Assembly (NCBI GenBank): GCA_028284285.1
Contig: JANQSA010000064.1
Coordinates: 1 to 64,000 of the forward strand
From: Croceivirga sp.
GTDB taxonomy: Bacteria > Bacteroidota > Bacteroidia > Flavobacteriales > Flavobacteriaceae
Reading direction: 5' to 3'
DNA length: 64,000 nucleotides
Positions within the stretch are counted from its first letter, which is position 1. Each line of letters begins with the position of its first letter. The notes below the pieces were generated by a model. That model ran no database searches. It was not told the DNA's origin and saw nothing but the letters and a program-made list of their open reading frames with translations. Below are positions 32,758 to 45,580 of the stretch, piece after piece. A program made the translations under genes and the position numbers.

Positions 32758-33365
32758 ATATTATTTTGTTGGTATGCTTAAAGCCGTTAAACACTTTTTT
32801 CATTCCTGAGCCTAACCATTGGATGTAAGTATTGACTGATACATAGATACAGGGTCATTGATCATATTTAACACAAATGAATTATCGAAGGGGAGTTTCA
32901 AAGTCCTATTAGAAAGCCGAATGGTATGAACAGGCAAAATTTCAAAAACCCCTTGTTTAAAAGACTTCATCTGAAATGGTATGTATTGAATTTTCCGGAA
33001 CTTGGAAATCCAAAATCCATATTTAGTTCGCTATACACTCATATTGTATTAACTTATAGCGTATCCTCTCTAAAGTAGTAGGGTTCCCATAACGAAGCAA
33101 TGATTTTTGTCAGATTTGAATATTTGAATATTTGATATTTGTCATTATTTCTTTTCGCCTATTCCACGTATTGCTGCACTTTTTAAAAAGGAACGTATTT
33201 AGGCGGATCAGCACTACCGGAATTGTTAAGGTCCAGGACACCATATATCTAAACAGGGGCTATGGTCAAACAAATTTTATGATTTTAAGTGCCTCTTCCT
33301 GATGCGGGTCATTTTGCAGGTTAACAGGCTGAAATATCTTTAAGTAAACCATAAAAATAGATGCC

Positions 33366-34942: not shown

Positions 34943-35645
34943 GTATTTCGGATTTCATAAGTTCCGCCACAGCATGCTCCATATCTATCTGTCCTGTTTC
35001 CTTTTTTAGTTCGGATGTAGTACCCTTGAAATATATTTTTCCTTCTAATATATAGATTACTTCATCGGCTACTTCTTCCACAAACTGCATCACATGAGAA
35101 GTGATCAACAAGGTTTTTCCCTTTCCTCTATGTTTATTTAGAAGTTTTTTGAGTTTAATTAACGCTCTGGGGTCTAGCCCTGTATTGGGCTCATCCAATA
35201 TCAGCAACTGGCTGTTGAACATAAAGGCCAATATCAGATTGACCTTTTGTTTGGTTCCCCCGGAAAGATTAGCCATCTTCTTTTCGAGGTGCGGTTCTAA
35301 ATCAAAAATCCTGATAAGCTCATCTTCCTGTCCAGGGGCATTCCGCAGGTCTTTGATCATTTCGATTAACTCGTTGACCTTCAAATTACCGGGAAAATTA
35401 GCTATTTGCGGAAGATAATCTATTTCTTTCCGATACCTCCATCCGTTTTTTATGGGTTTGCCTAAGACCTCTATAGTGCCCTTACTGGGAATGACCATAC
35501 CCAGGATGCATTTTATCAGAGTGGTTTTCCCGGAACCGTTTGGACCTAAAATGGCATAGATCTTTCCCGGATCTATGTCAAGATCTATACCTTTTAAAAC
35601 CTGATTTTTTCCAAAGGTTTTATGTAAATCGGTAATATGGATCAT
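34926..35645 (-). CDS. nosF: ABC transporter ATPase of nitrous oxide reductase maturation
   Basis: Walker A LGPNGSGKTT, signature LSGGTKQK, LILDEPNTGLD; nos context. Confidence 0.9.
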   Translation of the reverse strand: MIHITDLHKTFGKNQVLKGIDLDIDPGKIYAILGPNGSGKTTLIKCILGMVIPSKGTIEVLGKPIKNGWRYRKEIDYLPQIANFPGNLKVNELIEMIKDLRNAPGQEDELIRIFDLEPHLEKKMANLSGGTKQKVNLILAFMFNSQLLILDEPNTGLDPRALIKLKKLLNKHRGKGKTLLITSHVMQFVEEVADEVIYILEGKIYFKGTTSELKKETGQIDMEHAVAELMKSEIHGEST

Positions 35646-36883
35646 TGCCGCTTTTTCATTAAAGGTTCAGCATCCATTAAGTTGTCCGGAGTAAATATTG
35701 GAGAGACCTTTTCGGAAAAATCAATGATATCCATGAATAGACTCCTTAATAAGATGATGGTTTCCGGGGTTTTGTTTGCAATATAGGAAAAGAGTTTAAC
35801 GGGTCGGTAAGGTACGTCGCCAATACCATTCCGGTCCAAATCGTATCCTGTGTAGTTGTCCCAATAATTGGATTTGAACTGATTATCATTCAGCTTACCG
35901 TTATACGAAACGTCAAAAGAGTTGTTCATAAAATTGTTGCCTGAAAACGTATTGGTGTAACATGCTCCAATAACGCGTATGGCCCAGCCATTTTTGATGA
36001 AATCGTTGTCCTTGTAGCGAATACGATTGGACCCCTCTATATTTATGGCTATGGTATTTTCTTCGAAGGTATTGTTCACTATTTCCGCATCATTGATCTC
36101 TTTTAATAACATCCCATAAGCAGACGGCCCCCAATTCTTTTTAAAGGTATTATCGTACATTTTAATGTTTCTTGAGAACATGACCGCTACTCCTGCTCCA
36201 TTCTCCTCAAAGGTGTTTTGAGTATATACATCATTATCCGAAAACATAAAATGCAGGCCATATCTCAAGTTTTTAGTACTGGTGTTTCTCTGGATCGTAA
36301 TATGGTCTGAAAACTCAAGATAAATCCCATCACGGGTTCCCTGTACGTGATTGTGGCTTACTTCTACATAATGTGAATACCAAAGTTGAATACCGTTACC
36401 GGAGTTATACTCATCTTTGGCTTCTCCGATGATCTTATTGTGATACACTTTGCCATGCGATGATTTTTCGAGATAAATCCCAAAAAACAGTCTTTCCAAA
36501 ACATTGTTTTGAATGGTGAACTGCTCACTTTTGATGACCCTGATTGCCGCATGATCTGTAGTGTAGCTCACCCCTACATTTATTATAAACAGGCCATCTA
36601 CAGTAACATGATCCGAAGTTATTTTGATGATCTCTCCTTTTTCCTGACCGTCAATAACAGGATAGTTTTCTCCTTTCAGCGTCAAGGGCTTATCAATGTA
36701 AATATCATATTCAGGATATGTCCCCTTTTGTATTAAAACGGTATCGGACGCCTGGGCAATGGCAATTCCTTTCTTTACGGAATCCACAGGACATGTTTTA
36801 CATACCACAACAGTATGGGCTGAGATCTGCCAGGAGCACGCCCATAAGAAGAATACGATGGATGCAACCCCTTTTTTTATCAT
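35642..36883 (-). CDS. nosD: periplasmic copper-binding-type right-handed beta-helix protein NosD
   Basis: parallel beta-helix repeats; ATG at 36883 overlaps the upstream stop; nosFY downstream. Confidence 0.9.
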   Translation of the reverse strand: MIKKGVASIVFFLWACSWQISAHTVVVCKTCPVDSVKKGIAIAQASDTVLIQKGTYPEYDIYIDKPLTLKGENYPVIDGQEKGEIIKITSDHVTVDGLFIINVGVSYTTDHAAIRVIKSEQFTIQNNVLERLFFGIYLEKSSHGKVYHNKIIGEAKDEYNSGNGIQLWYSHYVEVSHNHVQGTRDGIYLEFSDHITIQRNTSTKNLRYGLHFMFSDNDVYTQNTFEENGAGVAVMFSRNIKMYDNTFKKNWGPSAYGMLLKEINDAEIVNNTFEENTIAINIEGSNRIRYKDNDFIKNGWAIRVIGACYTNTFSGNNFMNNSFDVSYNGKLNDNQFKSNYWDNYTGYDLDRNGIGDVPYRPVKLFSYIANKTPETIILLRSLFMDIIDFSEKVSPIFTPDNLMDAEPLMKKRQ

Positions 36884-37179
36884 CGTATGATGAGAAATTT
36901 TGAGTCCTCTAAAGCCTCTACCCAATGTTCGGTGTGCTTGGGAAAACGTAGCTCTTGATATTTTGCGATATGAATCGGGTTATCTGCGATGTAGAAGATA
37001 ATATGTCCTTCCAGTAGGATCAAATGGGCATCTTCGTTGGATTCATGAGGGGGAAAAACAGCATTTTTAGCTAAGCTGATACTCAATACTTCAAACCGGC
37101 TGTTTTTTTCCAGTTGTTTGATCTCTAACCCCTCAAAAGACTGATTAGCAATGGTATTGTTTATGTTTATTGTATACAT
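36880..37179 (-). CDS. cupin-like small protein in nos operon
   Basis: FEVLSISLAKNAVFPPHESNEDAHLILLEGHIIFYI cupin-like pattern. Confidence 0.6.
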   Translation of the reverse strand: MYTININNTIANQSFEGLEIKQLEKNSRFEVLSISLAKNAVFPPHESNEDAHLILLEGHIIFYIADNPIHIAKYQELRFPKHTEHWVEALEDSKFLIIR

Positions 37180-37196
37180 ATATCTGATTTCTGCTA

Positions 37197-37622
37197 TTAC
37201 TTTTTAAATCGTTCCCGCAGTTCTTCCCAATCAAATAGCGTTCCGCCATGCTCTGCTTGTGCTTTTACAGCTTCCTCATACGTCTTAAAGGCGGTTAAGA
37301 ATTCTCCCATCGGGCTGGGGATCCCTTCACTTATTAAAAAGGTGGCCTGGTCCACCTCAACCAGTTCTTCCGGATAATGATAGGTATTGGTTAAAAGGAC
37401 GCCTATTTTTTCCTCTTCCAGCTCATTTAGATGGTTTAGCATACACTCCAAAGCATCAAAATTGAAAACTTTACCTTTATTCGTTACCAACTGGGAAGCA
37501 TGCTGTTTATCCACGATGGTCATGCTACAAAAGTGGCAGGACACCTCACCATATGCTATGGGTTTTGGCCCAACAGAACACCCAAAAAGTAAGAGCAAAA
37601 AATAAGCGATCCCTTTTTTCAT
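37197..37622 (-). CDS. nosL: NosL copper chaperone lipoprotein
   Basis: lipobox LLLFGCS; CHFCSMTIVDKQHASQLVTNKGKVFNFDALECML typical of NosL. Confidence 0.9.
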   Translation of the reverse strand: MKKGIAYFLLLLFGCSVGPKPIAYGEVSCHFCSMTIVDKQHASQLVTNKGKVFNFDALECMLNHLNELEEEKIGVLLTNTYHYPEELVEVDQATFLISEGIPSPMGEFLTAFKTYEEAVKAQAEHGGTLFDWEELRERFKK

Positions 37623-38520: not shown

Positions 38521-40476
38521 TTATTCACCCAAAGACCAGGACAATTCAATATTGGAATTTGCCGGAGAAACCCTTACATAACCTTGCATCTCCTGATGTA
38601 AGGCAGAACAGAAATCTGTGCAATAGAAAGGCCATACGCCTACCTGCTTGGGTTCCCAAACCGAAGTTTTGGTCTGTCCGGGCATAATCAACAGTTCCGA
38701 GGTATTCTGACCCAGTATGGCAAATCCGTGAGGAACATCAAAGTCCTGTTCGTGATTTGTGATATGGAAATATACCTTGTCCCCAACTTTTATCCCTTCA
38801 ATATTATCCGGGGTAAAGTGGCTACGAATGGTGCCCATATAAACGTGGACCTCTTTTCCGTTTCGTTCTACCCGTGCATCTGCCGGACTATTTATACCGT
38901 AAGGATGTTTGTTCTCATCCAAACGATATATTTTTTTGGATTTTGGCGCCAGTAATTCGGCGGGACATCCTGCTGCATAATGGGGTTCCCCATGTGTTGG
39001 GAAATCGTAGATCAGTTCCATCTTCTCTCCGGAGATATCATAGATCTGGGCTGAGTGCTCTAACTCAGGACCCGTAGGCAAATACCTGTCCTTAGTGATT
39101 TTGTTCATGGCCACGACATATTTTCCAAAGGGTTTTCTTGAGTTCCCTCCAGGGATCATCAGGTGTCCTACCGAATAAAAAGTGGGCTTTCTGTCTATGA
39201 CTTCCCAGGATCCTAAAGCCCATTTTACGACTTCGGAGGATATAAAGAAGGTGGTATAGGCGTTGCCTTTATCGTCAAATTCGGTGTGTAATGGCCCTAA
39301 ACCACCACTTTTGACCTGTCCTGTCATTACATCCTCAAATTTTAAAATGGGGATACCATAGGCTTCACCGTCAAACTTTTTAGCTTCAATGGCTTCCAAC
39401 ATTTTTGTAAAGGAATGTACGGTAAGATCTGCAGACAGTTTTCCGGAACCAATAATATATTCACCGGAAGGATCTACATCACAACCGTGAGGGGATTTAG
39501 GTGTGGGTAAGAAGAACACCGCATCCGGTACCTCGGTAGGATCTACGGTTAGCACCTCTTTCTTCATGGTAGAAGTACCCATATGGGTTTCATGGCTATA
39601 TACATTATGGGCATAATTGGTAGCCATTTTTTCACCGCCACCATTGTTGACATATTCCTCTATTTTTTTCCAGTTAATAGCGGCTATAAAGTCTTTGTCA
39701 TTTTGAGAGGAGTTTACTTCCATCAGGGAGTTGGCCTCTTCGGTGTTATAGGTGCTGAAGAAATGCCATCCGTGTGATTTGCCCCTGCCCGGATGGGAAA
39801 GGTCATAGTTGAAGCCCGGCATCATTACCTGAAATTTCAGGTCAAGTCGACCAGATTCCGGGTCAACACTGATAAAACTTAAAGCTCCTTTAAAATTTCC
39901 TTTGTATTCGCTGATCGGCATATCGCGTTGTGGAACCGGAACAGCAAAACGAGTACCTGCAATTACATACTCCGTGTTTTCGGTTATGAATGCAGAACTG
40001 TGATTTCCGGCGCTATTGGGAATCTCAATAATTTCCTCGGTCTCAAAGGTTTCCAGGCTTACCCGTGCTATCCTCGGGGTATTATTCCCATTCACAAAGA
40101 CCCATCGTCCATCCAACTCACCATTGGTTTGCGAAATGTCCGGGTGGTGCAGGTCATCCCAGGGGATAAAACCATGAGAGGTATTCAGCATAGGTTTTGT
40201 TTCTTCGGAATATCCATATCCGGAGGTTGGGAATTGGGAAAACACAGGGATCTCCTTGAACATACGCCCGGAGGGCAAACCATAAACGGTCAGGTTCCCA
40301 CTATAACCACCGGAGAGAAACGCATAATATTCGTCTTGTTCTCCAGGGGCTACATACACTTTTTCTGCGGCGGAAGATGCTAAAGCACCATTGGCATTTG
40401 AGCCCGCCTGATTACAGCCCATGTAAACCAGGATTACGGCTAACAGGCCGCCAATTACGTAATAGATTTTTTTCAT
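38521..40476 (-). CDS. nosZ: nitrous oxide reductase (clade II-like)
   Basis: CuA motif YCTDFCSALHQEMQGYV; CuZ-type DDLHHPDISQTNGELDGRW; Sec-like rather than Tat N terminus. Confidence 0.96.
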   Translation of the reverse strand: MKKIYYVIGGLLAVILVYMGCNQAGSNANGALASSAAEKVYVAPGEQDEYYAFLSGGYSGNLTVYGLPSGRMFKEIPVFSQFPTSGYGYSEETKPMLNTSHGFIPWDDLHHPDISQTNGELDGRWVFVNGNNTPRIARVSLETFETEEIIEIPNSAGNHSSAFITENTEYVIAGTRFAVPVPQRDMPISEYKGNFKGALSFISVDPESGRLDLKFQVMMPGFNYDLSHPGRGKSHGWHFFSTYNTEEANSLMEVNSSQNDKDFIAAINWKKIEEYVNNGGGEKMATNYAHNVYSHETHMGTSTMKKEVLTVDPTEVPDAVFFLPTPKSPHGCDVDPSGEYIIGSGKLSADLTVHSFTKMLEAIEAKKFDGEAYGIPILKFEDVMTGQVKSGGLGPLHTEFDDKGNAYTTFFISSEVVKWALGSWEVIDRKPTFYSVGHLMIPGGNSRKPFGKYVVAMNKITKDRYLPTGPELEHSAQIYDISGEKMELIYDFPTHGEPHYAAGCPAELLAPKSKKIYRLDENKHPYGINSPADARVERNGKEVHVYMGTIRSHFTPDNIEGIKVGDKVYFHITNHEQDFDVPHGFAILGQNTSELLIMPGQTKTSVWEPKQVGVWPFYCTDFCSALHQEMQGYVRVSPANSNIELSWSLGE

Positions 40477-40508: not shown

Positions 40509-41093
40509 TTATTCTTCCGGGGGTAGGATTACTTTATCCACTACGTGTACAATACCGTTGCCGGCATTGACACTACCAATGATTTTGGCACCGCCAACGT
40601 ATACATCATCGCCCTTGACTTCAATAGTGGTATTCTGGTCATTGGCTTGTCCGAGCTTTTTAAACTTTTTTAAAAATTCCTTGTCGTATTTACCTGGAGT
40701 CACATGATGTTTTAAAATATTCTGTAACGTAGCTTTATTCTCCGGCTTTAACAAGTTCTCTACCGTACCTTCCGGTAGCGCGGCAAATGCCTCGTTTGTT
40801 GGCGCAAAAACCATTAAAGGCCCTGCATTAACCAAAGCATTTTCCAGATCTGCTGCCTGAACCGCCGTAACCAGTGTGCTGTGGTCAGGTGAATTGATGG
40901 CTATACTTAAAACAGTAGGGGTCGATTCATCATTCTCTATAAAGGCCTGGCCTTGCTCCTTATTGGCCTCGGTATCATTAGTGAATTCGGAGGCGGATGT
41001 TTTTTCCGCCTTATTCGCAGAATTACAGGCCGCCACTAAAAACAAGATTAGCAGCGGATAAGCGAACAGTTTATGTTTGACAATTGTTTTCAT
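40509..41093 (-). CDS. fasciclin-domain lipoprotein
   Basis: LVAACNS lipobox; VFAPTNEAFAALPEGTVENLL and NGIVHVVDKVILP. Confidence 0.93.
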   Translation of the reverse strand: MKTIVKHKLFAYPLLILFLVAACNSANKAEKTSASEFTNDTEANKEQGQAFIENDESTPTVLSIAINSPDHSTLVTAVQAADLENALVNAGPLMVFAPTNEAFAALPEGTVENLLKPENKATLQNILKHHVTPGKYDKEFLKKFKKLGQANDQNTTIEVKGDDVYVGGAKIIGSVNAGNGIVHVVDKVILPPEE

Positions 41094-41103
41094 ATAAATA
41101 GGT

Positions 41104-41616
41104 TTAGAGTGTTCTGAAATATTCGAGGAGCGAACGGGTCTGTTCTACAGTTAAGTTTTGATTGGCCATAGCCGCTCCGTTGAACTCCACCAAAAGGTCT
41201 TTGGCACAGCGGTCTTCTTCCACCATGAGTTGGGGGTCTAAGATCATATTCATTACCCATTCCGGGCTCCGTCTTTCCAAAATACCTTGCATCTTTGGGC
41301 CAATGAAGCGTTTGTCCGTTTTATGGCAGGCCGTGCAATTGGTTTTGAAAAGCGCTGCCCCGGCATCGGCCATTTCCGTGTTGATCTCAGGATCAAGGGT
41401 AATCTCTTTTATTTGCCCCACACCTTTGTTATCTAAGGTGATTCTTTGCGAGGCGGGCACCTCATTGTTCTCAGGAGCAGACTGTTCCACTTTTTCGGGA
41501 GATTTAGTCCTGGTGACGCTGAATCCTTCCTCTTTCTTTTCAGTCTTTCCACCGCAACCCACGCAGGTAAACAAAAAGGTGAGAAGAAGTGTTGGAATTG
41601 CAATATTGGCTTTCAT
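41104..41616 (-). CDS. cytochrome c lipoprotein
   Basis: CVGCGG lipobox-like; heme motif CTACH. Confidence 0.92.
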   Translation of the reverse strand: MKANIAIPTLLLTFLFTCVGCGGKTEKKEEGFSVTRTKSPEKVEQSAPENNEVPASQRITLDNKGVGQIKEITLDPEINTEMADAGAALFKTNCTACHKTDKRFIGPKMQGILERRSPEWVMNMILDPQLMVEEDRCAKDLLVEFNGAAMANQNLTVEQTRSLLEYFRTL

Positions 41617-41639: not shown

Positions 41640-41647
41640 CAAAAATA
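41640..41647 (-). promoter_or_regulatory. -7 element for the cytochrome c/nos operon
   Basis: minus strand TATTTTTG (TAnnTTTG). Confidence 0.55.
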
Positions 41648-41670
41648 ATAGGGGTCTAATGCGAAAAAAA

Positions 41671-41682
41671 TGATTTTCGTCA
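41671..41682. promoter_or_regulatory. CRP/FNR-type site upstream of nos operon
   Basis: TGATTTTCGTCA (TGA-N6-TCA). Confidence 0.6.
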
Positions 41683-41685
41683 TAA

Positions 41686-41705
41686 AAAAGATAAAAAAGT
41701 CTTTT
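41686..41705. promoter_or_regulatory. dyad, candidate Rrf2 site
   Basis: AAAAGA-N8-TCTTTT between nos operon and rrf2. Confidence 0.4.
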
Positions 41706-41711
41706 AATATT

Positions 41712-41719
41712 TAACTTTG
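41712..41719 (+). promoter_or_regulatory. -7 element for the Rrf2 gene
   Basis: TAACTTTG 19 bp before ATG at 41738. Confidence 0.5.
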
Positions 41720-41737
41720 TAAAGAAAAGGCTACACC

Positions 41738-42169
41738 ATGTTTTCAAACTCTTCCAAGTATGCGATCAAAGGGGTATTGTATCTCGCGGTAAACGCCAGT
41801 GAAACCAAAAAGATTTTGGCGAAGGATATCGCCAAACCCATTAATGTGCCGGCCTCCTACATTGCTAAACTGTTACAGGAATTGGGTAGGCATGGGATCG
41901 TTTCTTCTGTTAAAGGTCCTTACGGCGGATTTTACCTGGACGAGGAGAATTTGCAGACTACACTAATTAAGATTGTGGACATCATTGATGGAGAACAACG
42001 GTTGCGTTCATGCATGTTGAGCTTACATGAGTGTCATGACGAGAATCCCTGCCCCTTACATCACCTGGTGGGCGACGCCAAAAATAGTCTTATTAAGAAT
42101 TTGGAGGAAACCACTATTTCACAGCTGGTAGCCAACCTGGCGGAAGGGAAATCAGTATTACCACTTTAA
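41738..42169 (+). CDS. Rrf2-family regulator with three-Cys cluster motif
   Basis: Rrf2 wHTH (KYAIKGVLYLA, PASYIAKLLQELGRHGIVSSVKGPYGGF) and C-X6-C-X5-C motif. Confidence 0.93.
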   Translation: MFSNSSKYAIKGVLYLAVNASETKKILAKDIAKPINVPASYIAKLLQELGRHGIVSSVKGPYGGFYLDEENLQTTLIKIVDIIDGEQRLRSCMLSLHECHDENPCPLHHLVGDAKNSLIKNLEETTISQLVANLAEGKSVLPL

Positions 42170-42235
42170 TATCCTGAGTTATCGTGGTTTTTTGGAGTTG
42201 ATACGAATCCCTGTTCCAATTCCGGGGAATATGCT

Positions 42236-42447
42236 TAACTAGCGTGAATAATGAATAAGACATTTGTGGCCGAAAATCTTATTTCCCTAGCCCTAAAGGG
42301 CAAAGATTTTCTTGAAATTCGGTGGTTCCACGGAATTTTTACTCCCCTGTCTGCCGATTTATCTGCCGTAGGTAGACAAGGCAGGCTTTTAGGGCCGGGG
42401 AAAAGAAAAATTCAATCTGAAAGCTTATCCATTATTCACGTTAGTTA
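42236..42447. repeat. 212-bp element with 24-bp terminal inverted repeats
   Basis: TAACTAGCGTGAATAATGAATAAG vs CTTATCCATTATTCACGTTAGTTA, 22/24 complementary. Confidence 0.7.
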
Positions 42448-42472
42448 ATGAGCTACTTAACCAAAAACAAAA

Positions 42473-42503
42473 GACCTTCTAAAACACGTTCTCTTAGAAG
42501 GTC
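42473..42503 (-). terminator. terminator of the TonB receptor gene
   Basis: gaccttctaa-N11-ttagaaggtc, TTTTGTTTTT following on minus strand. Confidence 0.7.
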
Positions 42504-42527
42504 CTGTATTTAACAAATTGCCTTTTG

Positions 42528-44795
42528 TCAGAAAACAAAATTTATGGAGGCAAAAGCGTTACGTCCCGGGGCAAAAATGGGGGTGTTGTTCCCTCTTACG
42601 GAACGGTTTAAATGCTCAAAGTAATTTTCGTCAAAAAGGTTGTTCACACCCGCTGTAATTCTAGCTTCTTTTGTCAATTGACAGGCTAATTGAATATTCA
42701 ACAGCGAGAAAGAAGGGGTTTCCGTCTCTCCAAATTCAGGGGAAATTCGGGATTGCTGTAAAACATGCCTAAAAGTCAGTTCAGGTTGTAGCTTGCCCTT
42801 CATATAATCCCCAACCAGGACATACCTAAAGTCCAGGGGAGCAATTTCAGGTAGCGGCTCATCCCGCTCCAAATCTTGCGCATACGTATACGCTATACCT
42901 ACCTGATGCTGAAGCCCAACCAATAATTGTTGCTTCCAATTTACTTCAAAACCGGCTTTGTACGCATCCTCAATGTTTACAAATTGTCTAACTCCGGGAC
43001 TACTGGGCAATCTTGGCGTCAAGTCTTCATCAATAAAGGAGGAGATAAAGTCTTGCAAATATCCTGCAAACAGGTCCACATTTATACTGGTTTGCTTACT
43101 ATTCCATTGGAAAGAAAGATCCAACTGGTTGTTGACCTCGGGATCCAATTCAGGATTTCCCACTAATTCAAAAGGATCTTGTCCTACGGGAAAAAAGTTG
43201 ATAAAACGTTCCGTAAGTCCTGCACTGCGTTGCGCACGTCCCAGCCAAAGTCCAAGGGTTATCTTTTCACCAACAGTTTTGGTAGCTCCCAAACTAAAAC
43301 TTGGATTAAATTGGGTCACCCGTGCCTCTCCATTGGCTTCGGTAAATTTCTCAGCGGGATCATTGATATCCGCCGCGTTAACCTCCAGTCTTGTAGAGAA
43401 AACGAATTGGATATTTTTTGGTTTGAAATGATATTCGGCAAAAACACTGCTTTTGGTAATAAAACCATCTTGCCAGGCATTGTCCTCAAAAGTACGGCCC
43501 GCATTGGGCCCCGTTAAGAATTCACGTACGCGGGTACCCTCTGCCCCTTCACGCCTGAAATCCGCCCCTGCAAAAAGATTGGACTTTTCGAAATTCCAGA
43601 TACCTTCCGTCCTTCCCCCATAGTTGTAGGTGGTAGCATTGGTTCGGGCATTTAGCATTCTGGGATCAAGGGGTTTTAGCAGATTGTCCATTAAATGGTC
43701 TACAAATGAAGCAAAAACTGTGGTATTCCATGAACTCAGGTTCTTGTTGTCAAAAGTAATGTCATGCCTTGCATTAAACAGCCAGGTATCGTCATCCCTA
43801 AGATCCATGGGCAAAGCCGGAAAATCAGCATCCCTGGCCACATTATAAATAACCGATAATCGCAATTGGTGGTCATCGGAAATGGTGAACCCCAAATTGG
43901 TGCCAAAACTACCACGGCTAAAATCGGCGGGGATGGTCTGGTCATTACCGGAGGTATAGTCGTTACCCTGGGACCAGGACCCGAATACGGCCATGTCCGT
44001 GTTTTTTGTGCTAAACCCAAGTTTACCTTCATTTCTAAATACGGTGCCATTGCCTTCATATCCGCTGGATACTCTGCCATATAGGGCATCCTTTTCGGTG
44101 AAGCGGAGTTTGTTGGGAACAAAATTGATAGTGGCTCCGAATCCTGTTCCAAAACGAAGGGCATGTGGCCCTTTGAGTACTTCGATCCGATCCAACATAT
44201 TTGGTGCCATTTGGCTGGTGGGGGGATCCATTCGATTGGGGCAGGCGGCAGTGGCTCCTTGCGCCCCATTCAGTACAATATTTAATTGATCGTACTTAAA
44301 ACCCCTGAAAACCGGGTCAAAACCATAATTACCTCCCTTGCGGATACTGTTCAGGGCAGGGTTTTGGTTAAGGACAGCGGCACCATCGTGTGCCAATTGC
44401 TCCTGATAGTCCAGTTTTACCTTTTCCGAAGGTTTTTCATCAGGCCGTAGCGCAATGACGGTTACGGGATACAAGTTGACAATTGTTTTTTGGCGGTAGA
44501 GTATTTTTTCACTTTTTAGTTGTTGTACCTCCCCATCGTCAAGTGTCCATTTTCCATAGTTAATATGCGAAAAATGCATGGAAAGGCCCTCTTTGTAGGC
44601 GAATTGAAAATTGCCTTTATCATTAGTGGCACCATTTTGTTGTCCATATTCAAATGTTGCCCCCACGATGGGAAAAGAATTCGTTTTATCCAATAGTTTA
44701 ACGGTGTTGGTTTCCTGTGCCCATATCGGAAAAAATGTTAGTAAATGGACAACGACAACCAACCACCCTTTTTGTGCAGTCTGTAGTAAAGTCAT
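42528..44795 (-). CDS. TonB-dependent receptor, OprC/NosA-like copper receptor
   Basis: TBDR plug/barrel; ACPNRMDPPTSQMAP containing CxxxM; likely start MTLLQTAQ at 44795. Confidence 0.88.
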   Translation of the reverse strand: MTLLQTAQKGWLVVVVHLLTFFPIWAQETNTVKLLDKTNSFPIVGATFEYGQQNGATNDKGNFQFAYKEGLSMHFSHINYGKWTLDDGEVQQLKSEKILYRQKTIVNLYPVTVIALRPDEKPSEKVKLDYQEQLAHDGAAVLNQNPALNSIRKGGNYGFDPVFRGFKYDQLNIVLNGAQGATAACPNRMDPPTSQMAPNMLDRIEVLKGPHALRFGTGFGATINFVPNKLRFTEKDALYGRVSSGYEGNGTVFRNEGKLGFSTKNTDMAVFGSWSQGNDYTSGNDQTIPADFSRGSFGTNLGFTISDDHQLRLSVIYNVARDADFPALPMDLRDDDTWLFNARHDITFDNKNLSSWNTTVFASFVDHLMDNLLKPLDPRMLNARTNATTYNYGGRTEGIWNFEKSNLFAGADFRREGAEGTRVREFLTGPNAGRTFEDNAWQDGFITKSSVFAEYHFKPKNIQFVFSTRLEVNAADINDPAEKFTEANGEARVTQFNPSFSLGATKTVGEKITLGLWLGRAQRSAGLTERFINFFPVGQDPFELVGNPELDPEVNNQLDLSFQWNSKQTSINVDLFAGYLQDFISSFIDEDLTPRLPSSPGVRQFVNIEDAYKAGFEVNWKQQLLVGLQHQVGIAYTYAQDLERDEPLPEIAPLDFRYVLVGDYMKGKLQPELTFRHVLQQSRISPEFGETETPSFSLLNIQLACQLTKEARITAGVNNLFDENYFEHLNRSVRGNNTPIFAPGRNAFASINFVF

Positions 44796-44863
44796 GATGT
44801 TATGTTGATAATTCAAGTATTCTGAAAACGTAGACGCATGCTGCGTCACTAGCGGTCATGTTA

Positions 44864-45120
44864 TGAACTCATTTGGACTTTTTCAATTGGCTAAAAGAAT
44901 CGCCCTTTTTCACACAGCGTACCAGTTGGCTCCTCATCCAAAAGCCAAATAATTGGCTTTTTCCTTCGGCCCTGACTTTTTTTCTTCCGTAGCCCTGCTA
45001 CCTGCCCGCTCAGCAGGCGGGTGCAACTCAAAAAAGCCTGCCCGTTCCATTCAGGCGGGCCTTCAACCAGGCAAAAAATGACTGATTTTCGCTTTAATTC
45101 AAAAAGTCTAAATGAGTTCA
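44864..45120. mobile_element. MITE-like element with 20-bp terminal inverted repeats
   Basis: TGAACTCATTTGGACTTTTT at 44864-44883 and its inverse with one mismatch at 45101-45120; GC-rich palindromes inside. Confidence 0.65.
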
Positions 45121-45135
45121 ATTTCAAAATCCGGA

Positions 45136-45510
45136 TCAGAAGCGCTCCGGCGGTTGAATTATCTTGGAAATGAAAAGAAAAGTGTGAAGGTTTTGTATGT
45201 ACCCGATGGGGACATTTTTATTGCTGAGCAGAAATTGTACGCCTTTTAAGTGAGAGGTAGTTTCGGTCTCTAATATCAGTGGCAGTTCAAAGATCAATAA
45301 TCGGGTAAAAGGATTTTCTTGATTTTGGTCGGATTCCTTGGTCAATAATTCCGTCAAGTAACACTTACCATCACATTGCAACTGGGGCCGGTCTTTATTT
45401 ACGCAAAGGTGGGTCACAATGTAGTCGTAATTGATTACATACGCTGCTATGGGCCATAAAGGTTTGATTAGTAGCATTATAAGTATGGGTATGACCAATA
45501 GCTTTTTCAC
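45136..45510 (-). CDS. small membrane/secreted protein with Cys motif, copper-module candidate
   Basis: N-terminal TM; CVNKDRPQLQCDGKCYLTELL motif; upstream of TonB receptor. Confidence 0.6.
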   Translation of the reverse strand: MKKLLVIPILIMLLIKPLWPIAAYVINYDYIVTHLCVNKDRPQLQCDGKCYLTELLTKESDQNQENPFTRLLIFELPLILETETTSHLKGVQFLLSNKNVPIGYIQNLHTFLFISKIIQPPERF

Positions 45511-45514
45511 AATT

Positions 45515-45522
45515 CAAAAGTA
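45515..45522 (-). promoter_or_regulatory. -7 element for the 45136-45510 gene
   Basis: minus strand TACTTTTG (TAnnTTTG). Confidence 0.5.
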
Positions 45523-45545
45523 GAGCGTGAGGGGGATGAAAAAAC

Positions 45546-45557
45546 TGATTTTTATCA
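45546..45557. promoter_or_regulatory. CRP/FNR-type site upstream of copper-module gene
   Basis: TGATTTTTATCA, same spacing to -7 element as the nos promoter. Confidence 0.6.
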
Positions 45558-45558
45558 T

Positions 45559-45580
45559 AAAAAGACAAAAATATCTTTTT
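45559..45580. promoter_or_regulatory. dyad matching the nos-promoter dyad
   Basis: AAAAAGA-N8-TCTTTTT. Confidence 0.4.

Follow-up and report, generated by a model that had tools for sequence, protein, structure and literature searches.

Bacteria that carry clade II nitrous oxide (N2O) reductase genes (nosZ), many Bacteroidota among them, are regarded as a major sink for N2O. Genes for Rrf2-family regulators are over-represented on scaffolds with clade II nos genes, and rrf2 adjoining nosZ has been noted (PMC6264515); beyond this adjacency, no description of the control of clade II nos promoters was found in the literature, with most subscription papers falling outside the search. The stretch of Croceivirga sp. 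(Flavobacteriaceae) DNA analyzed here, hereafter the window, comprises positions 1 to 64,000 of contig JANQSA010000064.1 (assembly GCA_028284285.1). Here, rrf2 lies between the nos operon, from which it is divergently oriented, and a putative copper module encoding a small protein and a TonB-dependent receptor. Two putative regulator sites recur at the promoters of both the nos operon and the copper module, namely a CRP/FNR-type site and a dyad upstream of it. Quite probably, these two promoters represent a two-input N2O-respiration regulon in which FNR-type activation is gated by the iron-sulfur (Fe-S) Rrf2 protein.

Architecture and conservation of the promoters

All motif strings of the original prediction are present at the positions that it assigned to them (Table 1). 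In both promoters, a gap of 23 bp separates the -7 box from the TGA-N6-TCA site, such that TGA begins 24 positions past the box, as had been proposed. The TAnnTTTG box, which is the flavobacterial σA box, occupies positions -12 to -5 in transcriptome work on Flavobacterium psychrophilum (PMC9723704), and the start positions given in this text were predicted by applying this box position. Because of this placement, the CRP/FNR-type sites are centered at exactly -41.5, the class II position, compared with the earlier estimate of about -41. The geometry of the CRP/FNR-type site and the -7 box is identical in the two promoters, in agreement with the claim of a common two-part architecture, with one small refinement: the centers of the dyad and the CRP/FNR-type site are separated by 19 bp in the nos promoter and by 18 bp in that of the copper module. 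The nos dyad was also said to overlap the Rrf2 promoter region; indeed, it adjoins the -7 box of rrf2, and the same pattern is seen in other divergent loci.

NosZ scoring above the cut-off is encoded in 141 of the 301 Flavobacteriaceae genomes, and 101 nos promoters were compared (loci from 100 other genomes of this family and the window). The class II arrangement of both promoters of the window, with TGA-N6-TCA and TAnnTTTG exactly 35 bp apart from start to start, is found in 90 of the 101; when offsets from 33 to 37 were tested on the first 81 promoters, none but the 35 bp one was found. Several of the remaining promoters retain TGA-N6-TCA with an altered box. Upstream of the FNR site, the family consensus of the dyad (leave-one-out scores) is ARGAYA-N4-TRTCYT, and its center is 19 bp away from that of the FNR site in 63 of the 79 cases with a spacing, 20 bp in 9 and 18 bp in 3. 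Three loci, L095 (G115), L102 (G077) and L038 (at 8520), have a dyad in the spacer that separates the FNR site from the -7 box. The one in L038 precedes a gene for an alginate-export-type porin, and similar porin-like genes are located near composite matches in L202-L204.

Rrf2 as the candidate reader of the dyad

The protein encoded by rrf2 belongs to the Rrf2 superfamily (PF02082, 95.5 versus a cut-off of 30; TIGR00738, 97.5 versus 73.3) and falls below the equivalog cut-offs of both NsrR (NF008240, 40.4 bits versus 182) and IscR (TIGR02010, 65.9 bits versus 207.55). C92, C99, C105 and H108, an IscR-like set of Fe-S ligands, are invariant in all 52 Rrf2 orthologues examined.

The dyad is found in 86 of the 93 promoters from genomes with Rrf2 and in none of the 8 from genomes without it (Fisher p=3e-8; 4e-7 at a stricter score cut). 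The latter are nosZ-bearing genomes, two of them incomplete assemblies, that encode either no homologue or a distant one (G281, 5e-15; G259, 1e-13), whereas the weakest homologue counted as present is near 1e-20. On the NosZ tree, the absence of Rrf2 corresponds to about seven independent changes (losses), and all Rrf2-less genomes other than those of the G031/G259 group adjoin dyad-bearing, Rrf2-bearing relatives. In loci with a divergent rrf2, the dyad overlies the rrf2 promoter, a pattern to which the window conforms. Among the 50 loci of this type, a CAAANNTA box was counted about 30 times next to the dyad, in 13 instances at one and the same distance, versus once among the 36 non-divergent loci. 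Non-divergent rrf2 genes are often found elsewhere within about 10 kb of nosZ, and in G203 the gene adjoins the copper module instead of nos. Because the dyad tracks the presence of Rrf2 and overlaps or flanks rrf2, this protein is the likely reader of the dyad.

In some nos loci of other Bacteroidota families, the dyad is located at blocking-type positions. In L283 and L296 (family f4), the FNR site is again at -41.5, and the dyad covers the bases predicted to be transcribed first, around +1. L286 and L313 (f8) have two dyads, one across the predicted -33 region of rrf2 and one between this gene and the ScdA/RIC gene that follows it; in L287 and L288 (f3), the dyad precedes a ScdA-type gene that is followed by rrf2. 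The nos-linked rrf2 genes of these last four loci are grouped with genes for ScdA/RIC hemerythrin proteins and cytochrome-type membrane proteins. Proteins of the ScdA/RIC type repair iron centers damaged by nitric oxide (NO), and these neighbors thus tie Rrf2 to NO biology, by gene neighborhood only. The natural series of dyad positions (+1, FNR-to--7 spacer, -60.5, absent) offers material for studying how a regulator site moves.

The same composite of dyad and FNR site precedes the gene for the copper small protein in seven genomes, all with nosZ (G000, G081, G219, G105, G203, G231 and G075), and a copper nitrite reductase-like (nirK-like) gene, encoding multicopper oxidase and cytochrome c domains, in four (G013, G246, G116 and G247), of which G116 and G247 have no nosZ. 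It is also found before a NosL gene in G083. The dyad thus marks denitrification and copper genes inside a wider predicted FNR regulon. Altogether, joint control by a class II CRP/FNR activator and Rrf2, as suggested by the original prediction, receives comparative support from the geometry conserved in 90 of the 101 promoters, the tracking of Rrf2 by the dyad through about seven independent losses and the recurrence of the composite at copper-module and nirK promoters.

Proposed mechanism and alternatives

At low oxygen, an FNR-type protein would bind TGA-N6-TCA at -41.5 and, as a class II activator, would activate the sigma-A RNA polymerase at TAnnTTTG. The Fe-S Rrf2 protein would bind the ARGAYA-N4-TRTCYT dyad at about -60.5, adjoining the FNR site at the expected place of the C-terminal domain of the polymerase alpha subunit (alpha-CTD), and simultaneously over its own promoter. 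Holo-Rrf2 most likely represses, by blocking FNR or the alpha-CTD and restraining its own synthesis, and damage or loss of the Fe-S cluster, probably by NO or a related signal, would lift the repression. The TonB-dependent receptor and the small protein would be switched together with NosZ, plausibly because NosZ needs copper. Oxygen lack and a second iron-sulfur sensor, Rrf2, would probably jointly set the timing of N2O removal.

That Rrf2 is a repressor appears most likely given the blocking-type dyad positions elsewhere (the +1 region in L283 and L296, the rrf2 -33 region in L286 and L313, and the FNR-to--7 spacer in G077), the autoregulatory position of the dyad and the survival of the FNR promoter after the loss of Rrf2. 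Because the Rrf2-less genomes keep this promoter, Rrf2 is apparently not needed for expression. Several points weigh against this scheme. The -60.5 position is also near the usual class I activator position; an NO signal is not obvious in the genome of the window because no NirK was found there; and seven genomes with Rrf2 are without a good nos dyad (in one it is located in the spacer, in two only degenerate traces are left at the expected position, and four are unexplained). Furthermore, the TGA site could be recognized by other CRP/FNR proteins, among them two response-regulator fusions. The sequences show the geometry, its conservation, the co-occurrence of the dyad with Rrf2 and the additional targets; the binding, sign, signal and copper cargo are inferred.

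The fixed 19 bp spacing, next to a class I-like site, would also suit a co-activator that acts from -60.5 together with FNR at -41.5, forming an AND gate for anoxia and the Rrf2 signal. Activating Rrf2 proteins are known: the Thermus NsrR raises transcription from PnorC and PnirJ and represses PnirS (PMC5748679). Such a role is nonetheless rather unlikely for the present protein, considering that dyads also cover +1, occupy the FNR-to--7 spacer or overlie the -33 region of rrf2 itself, and that the FNR promoters of Rrf2-less genomes are otherwise intact. It is conceivable, if somewhat short of probable, that an uncharacterized Fe-S branch of Rrf2 runs a dedicated N2O regulon of Flavobacteriaceae (nosZ, copper import and nirK) and that its site has moved from a position over +1 that blocks the promoter, as in another Bacteroidota family, to a fixed one 19 bp upstream of the FNR site, at -60.5, so that the protein would not be a classical repressor but an anti-activator or a co-activator.

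The activator appears to have a broader role. Thirteen other promoters of the genome share the TGA site and the box but have no dyad (15 promoters in total, only those of nos and the copper module with the dyad). The genes behind these 13 sites, with names read from the sequences by eye, include those for universal stress protein-like proteins, a ribosome-hibernation-type factor and a NadA-like protein, as well as two tandem CRP/FNR genes. This set is a predicted anaerobic FNR-type regulon, and, because the 13 dyad-less promoters share the site and the box, the activator is better named a general FNR-type anaerobic regulator. An E-x3-R recognition helix is present in three CRP/FNR proteins of this genome, and in two of these a receiver domain precedes the CRP part. 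The best candidate for the activator is the protein encoded at G000:C80:81662, which has this helix and for which the best solved match is an FNR; the CxxC motif and the distal cysteine are aligned, whereas the third N-terminal cysteine is not, another cysteine being located elsewhere. In G000:C80:81662-83135 (L207), two tandem CRP/FNR genes are preceded by an FNR site of their own and oriented divergently to a metal-ATPase-like gene, and the second of them has lost the recognition-helix arginine. The receiver-domain/CRP fusions, at G000:C67:63155 and C67:76674 (L132, L133, L212), share a contig with universal stress protein-like genes bearing FNR sites.

With two of the three E-x3-R proteins fused to receiver domains, TGA-N6-TCA might be read by an NO-sensing DNR/NnrR-type or a response-regulator-fused CRP protein instead of an oxygen-sensing FNR. 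This, too, seems unlikely: the same site and spacing before stress-type, hibernation-type and FNR genes fit a general anaerobic regulator, and the C80 protein matches a solved FNR with three of the four FNR cysteines aligned. Still less plausible is a reader of the dyad other than Rrf2, such as a copper or N-oxide sensor that shares its distribution. The association between the dyad and Rrf2 is correlative, and several Rrf2-bearing genomes have no dyad, but the location of the dyad within the rrf2 promoter in divergent loci and beside rrf2 in other families, together with about seven independent parallel losses, argues for Rrf2 itself.

A genome scan had been proposed along with the original prediction, and in the 4.82 Mb genome of the window, with reversed patterns as the control, the fixed geometry exceeds the control whereas loose motifs do not. 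The exact dyad AAAAGA-N8-TCTTTT alone is not enriched (four matches versus four for the control; exact dyads are also present on contigs C3 and C22), the one-mismatch dyad scan (54 versus 32) is mostly noise and was left unused, and TGATTTTNNTCA alone shows a mild excess in the window (24 versus 14 expected, one mismatch allowed). By contrast, TGAN6TCA-N23-TANNTTTG (TGA-N6-TCA-N23-TAnnTTTG) has 15 matches versus 1, and two of the three zero-mismatch matches of the refined dyad AAARGAY-N6-RTCYTTT are the nos and copper-module promoters. With loose motifs near the background, the signal thus lies in the geometry and the refined dyad. In the 301 Flavobacteriaceae genomes, the composite of the dyad and TGAN6TCA has 104 matches versus 15 for the reversed control (a hand count from a listing); several matches in nosZ-less genomes, at background frequency, have no recognizable gene behind them or come without a -7 box. 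The strict composite, for which one exact spacing was required, was found in 6 of the 396 genomes scanned across the phylum, all of them Flavobacteriaceae, a result that does not prove absence elsewhere given that nosZ status outside this family is known for 80 genomes only. Chance matches in AT-rich intergenic DNA, which the near-background frequency of the loose motifs by themselves might suggest, are an explanation of negligible probability, already refuted by the excesses of 15 versus 1 and 104 versus 15 and by the invariant spacing in 90 of the 101 promoters.

Comparison with known systems

The combination of FNR with an Rrf2-family repressor at denitrification genes is already known from Neisseria and, with a dual action, from Thermus. 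In Neisseria, aniA/norB and dnrN involve an FNR activator and the Rrf2-family repressor NsrR (PMC3032703). The present system, as predicted from sequence alone, similarly joins an oxygen-sensing FNR activator and an Rrf2-family protein at denitrification genes; however, the targets are nosZ and copper import rather than nitrite and NO reductases, for which NarQP is also involved in Neisseria, the score of the Rrf2 protein does not reach the NsrR cut-off, and both site and spacing differ. The nic cluster of Thermus thermophilus combines activation by DnrS/DnrT with NsrR-Th, and its rrf2 is linked to ScdA and cupin genes (PMC5748679). An anoxic activator paired with an Rrf2 protein and the rrf2-ScdA linkage are common to this cluster and the Bacteroidota loci, whereas NsrR-Th acts dually on nir/nor and the promoters differ. 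The nic cluster is not known to have a fixed spacing between an FNR site and a dyad. The Fe-S ligands of IscR are a C-C-C-H set, which the present Rrf2 shares along with a similar winged-helix sequence, but the first two cysteines form C-x6-C as opposed to C-x5-C in IscR, the score is far below the IscR cut-off, and the targets are respiration and copper genes.

As with the TonB-dependent copper receptors NosA and OprC, a TonB-dependent receptor is linked here to N2O reductase genes. According to a title cited in PMC12914433, the N2O reductase of P. stutzeri requires NosA. Unlike NosA/OprC, the receptor in the window is below the family cut-off (233 versus 472 bits) and is preceded by an uncharacterized small protein. 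Within the literature searched, no earlier account seems to exist of the site, its fixed spacing, the extension to copper uptake or the conservation throughout the family. If correct, the scheme would allow the timing of N2O consumption by these bacteria to be read from their promoters, would tie copper import to this consumption and would name two candidate regulators.

Genes of the locus and additional observations

Table 1. Genes and predicted regulatory elements of the nos locus and the copper module in the window
Feature	Positions	Strand	Remarks
Genes for NosL, a cupin and NosD, downstream part of the nos cluster	35642..37622	-	PF05573, PF05048
nosZ, Sec-dependent clade II nitrous-oxide reductase	38521..40476	-	TIGR04246, 936.6 bits (cut-off 625)
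Fasciclin-domain protein, nos operon	40509..41093	-	PF02469
c-type cytochrome lipoprotein, first gene of the nos operon	41104..41616	-	PF00034
-7 box TATTTTTG, nos promoter	41640..41647	-	Predicted -12 to -5; TAnnTTTG at a fixed distance in 90/101 nos promoters
Predicted CRP/FNR-type site TGATTTTCGTCA = TGACGAAAATCA, nos promoter	41671..41682	-	Center -41.5
Putative Rrf2-type dyad AAAAGACTTTTTTATCTTTT, AAAAGA-N8-TCTTTT	41686..41705	.	Centered at about -60.5 relative to the nos start; overlap with the rrf2 promoter as well
-7 box TAACTTTG of divergent rrf2	41711..41718	+	Sequence match; CAAANNTA counts in divergent loci given in the text
rrf2, Rrf2-family regulator, 143 amino acids	41738..42169	+	C92-x6-C99-x5-C105-x2-H108; PF02082 and TIGR00738 above cut-off
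TonB-dependent receptor, copper module	42528..44795	-	TIGR01778, 233 bits (cut-off 472.45)
124-amino-acid protein, copper module	45136..45510	-	C and CxGKC motif conserved; homologues encoded by 161 of the 301 family genomes
-7 box TACTTTTG, copper-module promoter	45515..45522	-	GTG start codon predicted at +1 (leaderless)
Predicted CRP/FNR-type site TGATTTTTATCA = TGATAAAAATCA, copper-module promoter	45546..45557	-	Center -41.5
Putative Rrf2-type dyad, core AAAAGATATTTTTGTCTTTT, copper module	45560..45579	.	Center about -59.5

The TonB-dependent receptor is nearest to the copper-receptor family, yet under the equivalog cut-off of TIGR01778, and is likely a copper importer, with copper as the predicted cargo. 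The small protein has no Pfam or NCBIfam match and is possibly a component of the copper module; among its homologues, an LC...CxGKC motif is often conserved. In 10 of the 14 homologous promoters examined, the start codon of the small protein gene is at the predicted +1 or +2 (window 45510-45522; L166-L168, L170, L172, L173, L176, L177, L185, L187), which suggests a conserved leaderless mRNA. In addition, an intergenic region of the window (33101-33144) contains two TGA-N6-TCA-like sites 32 bp apart, with no -7 box seen at the usual distance.

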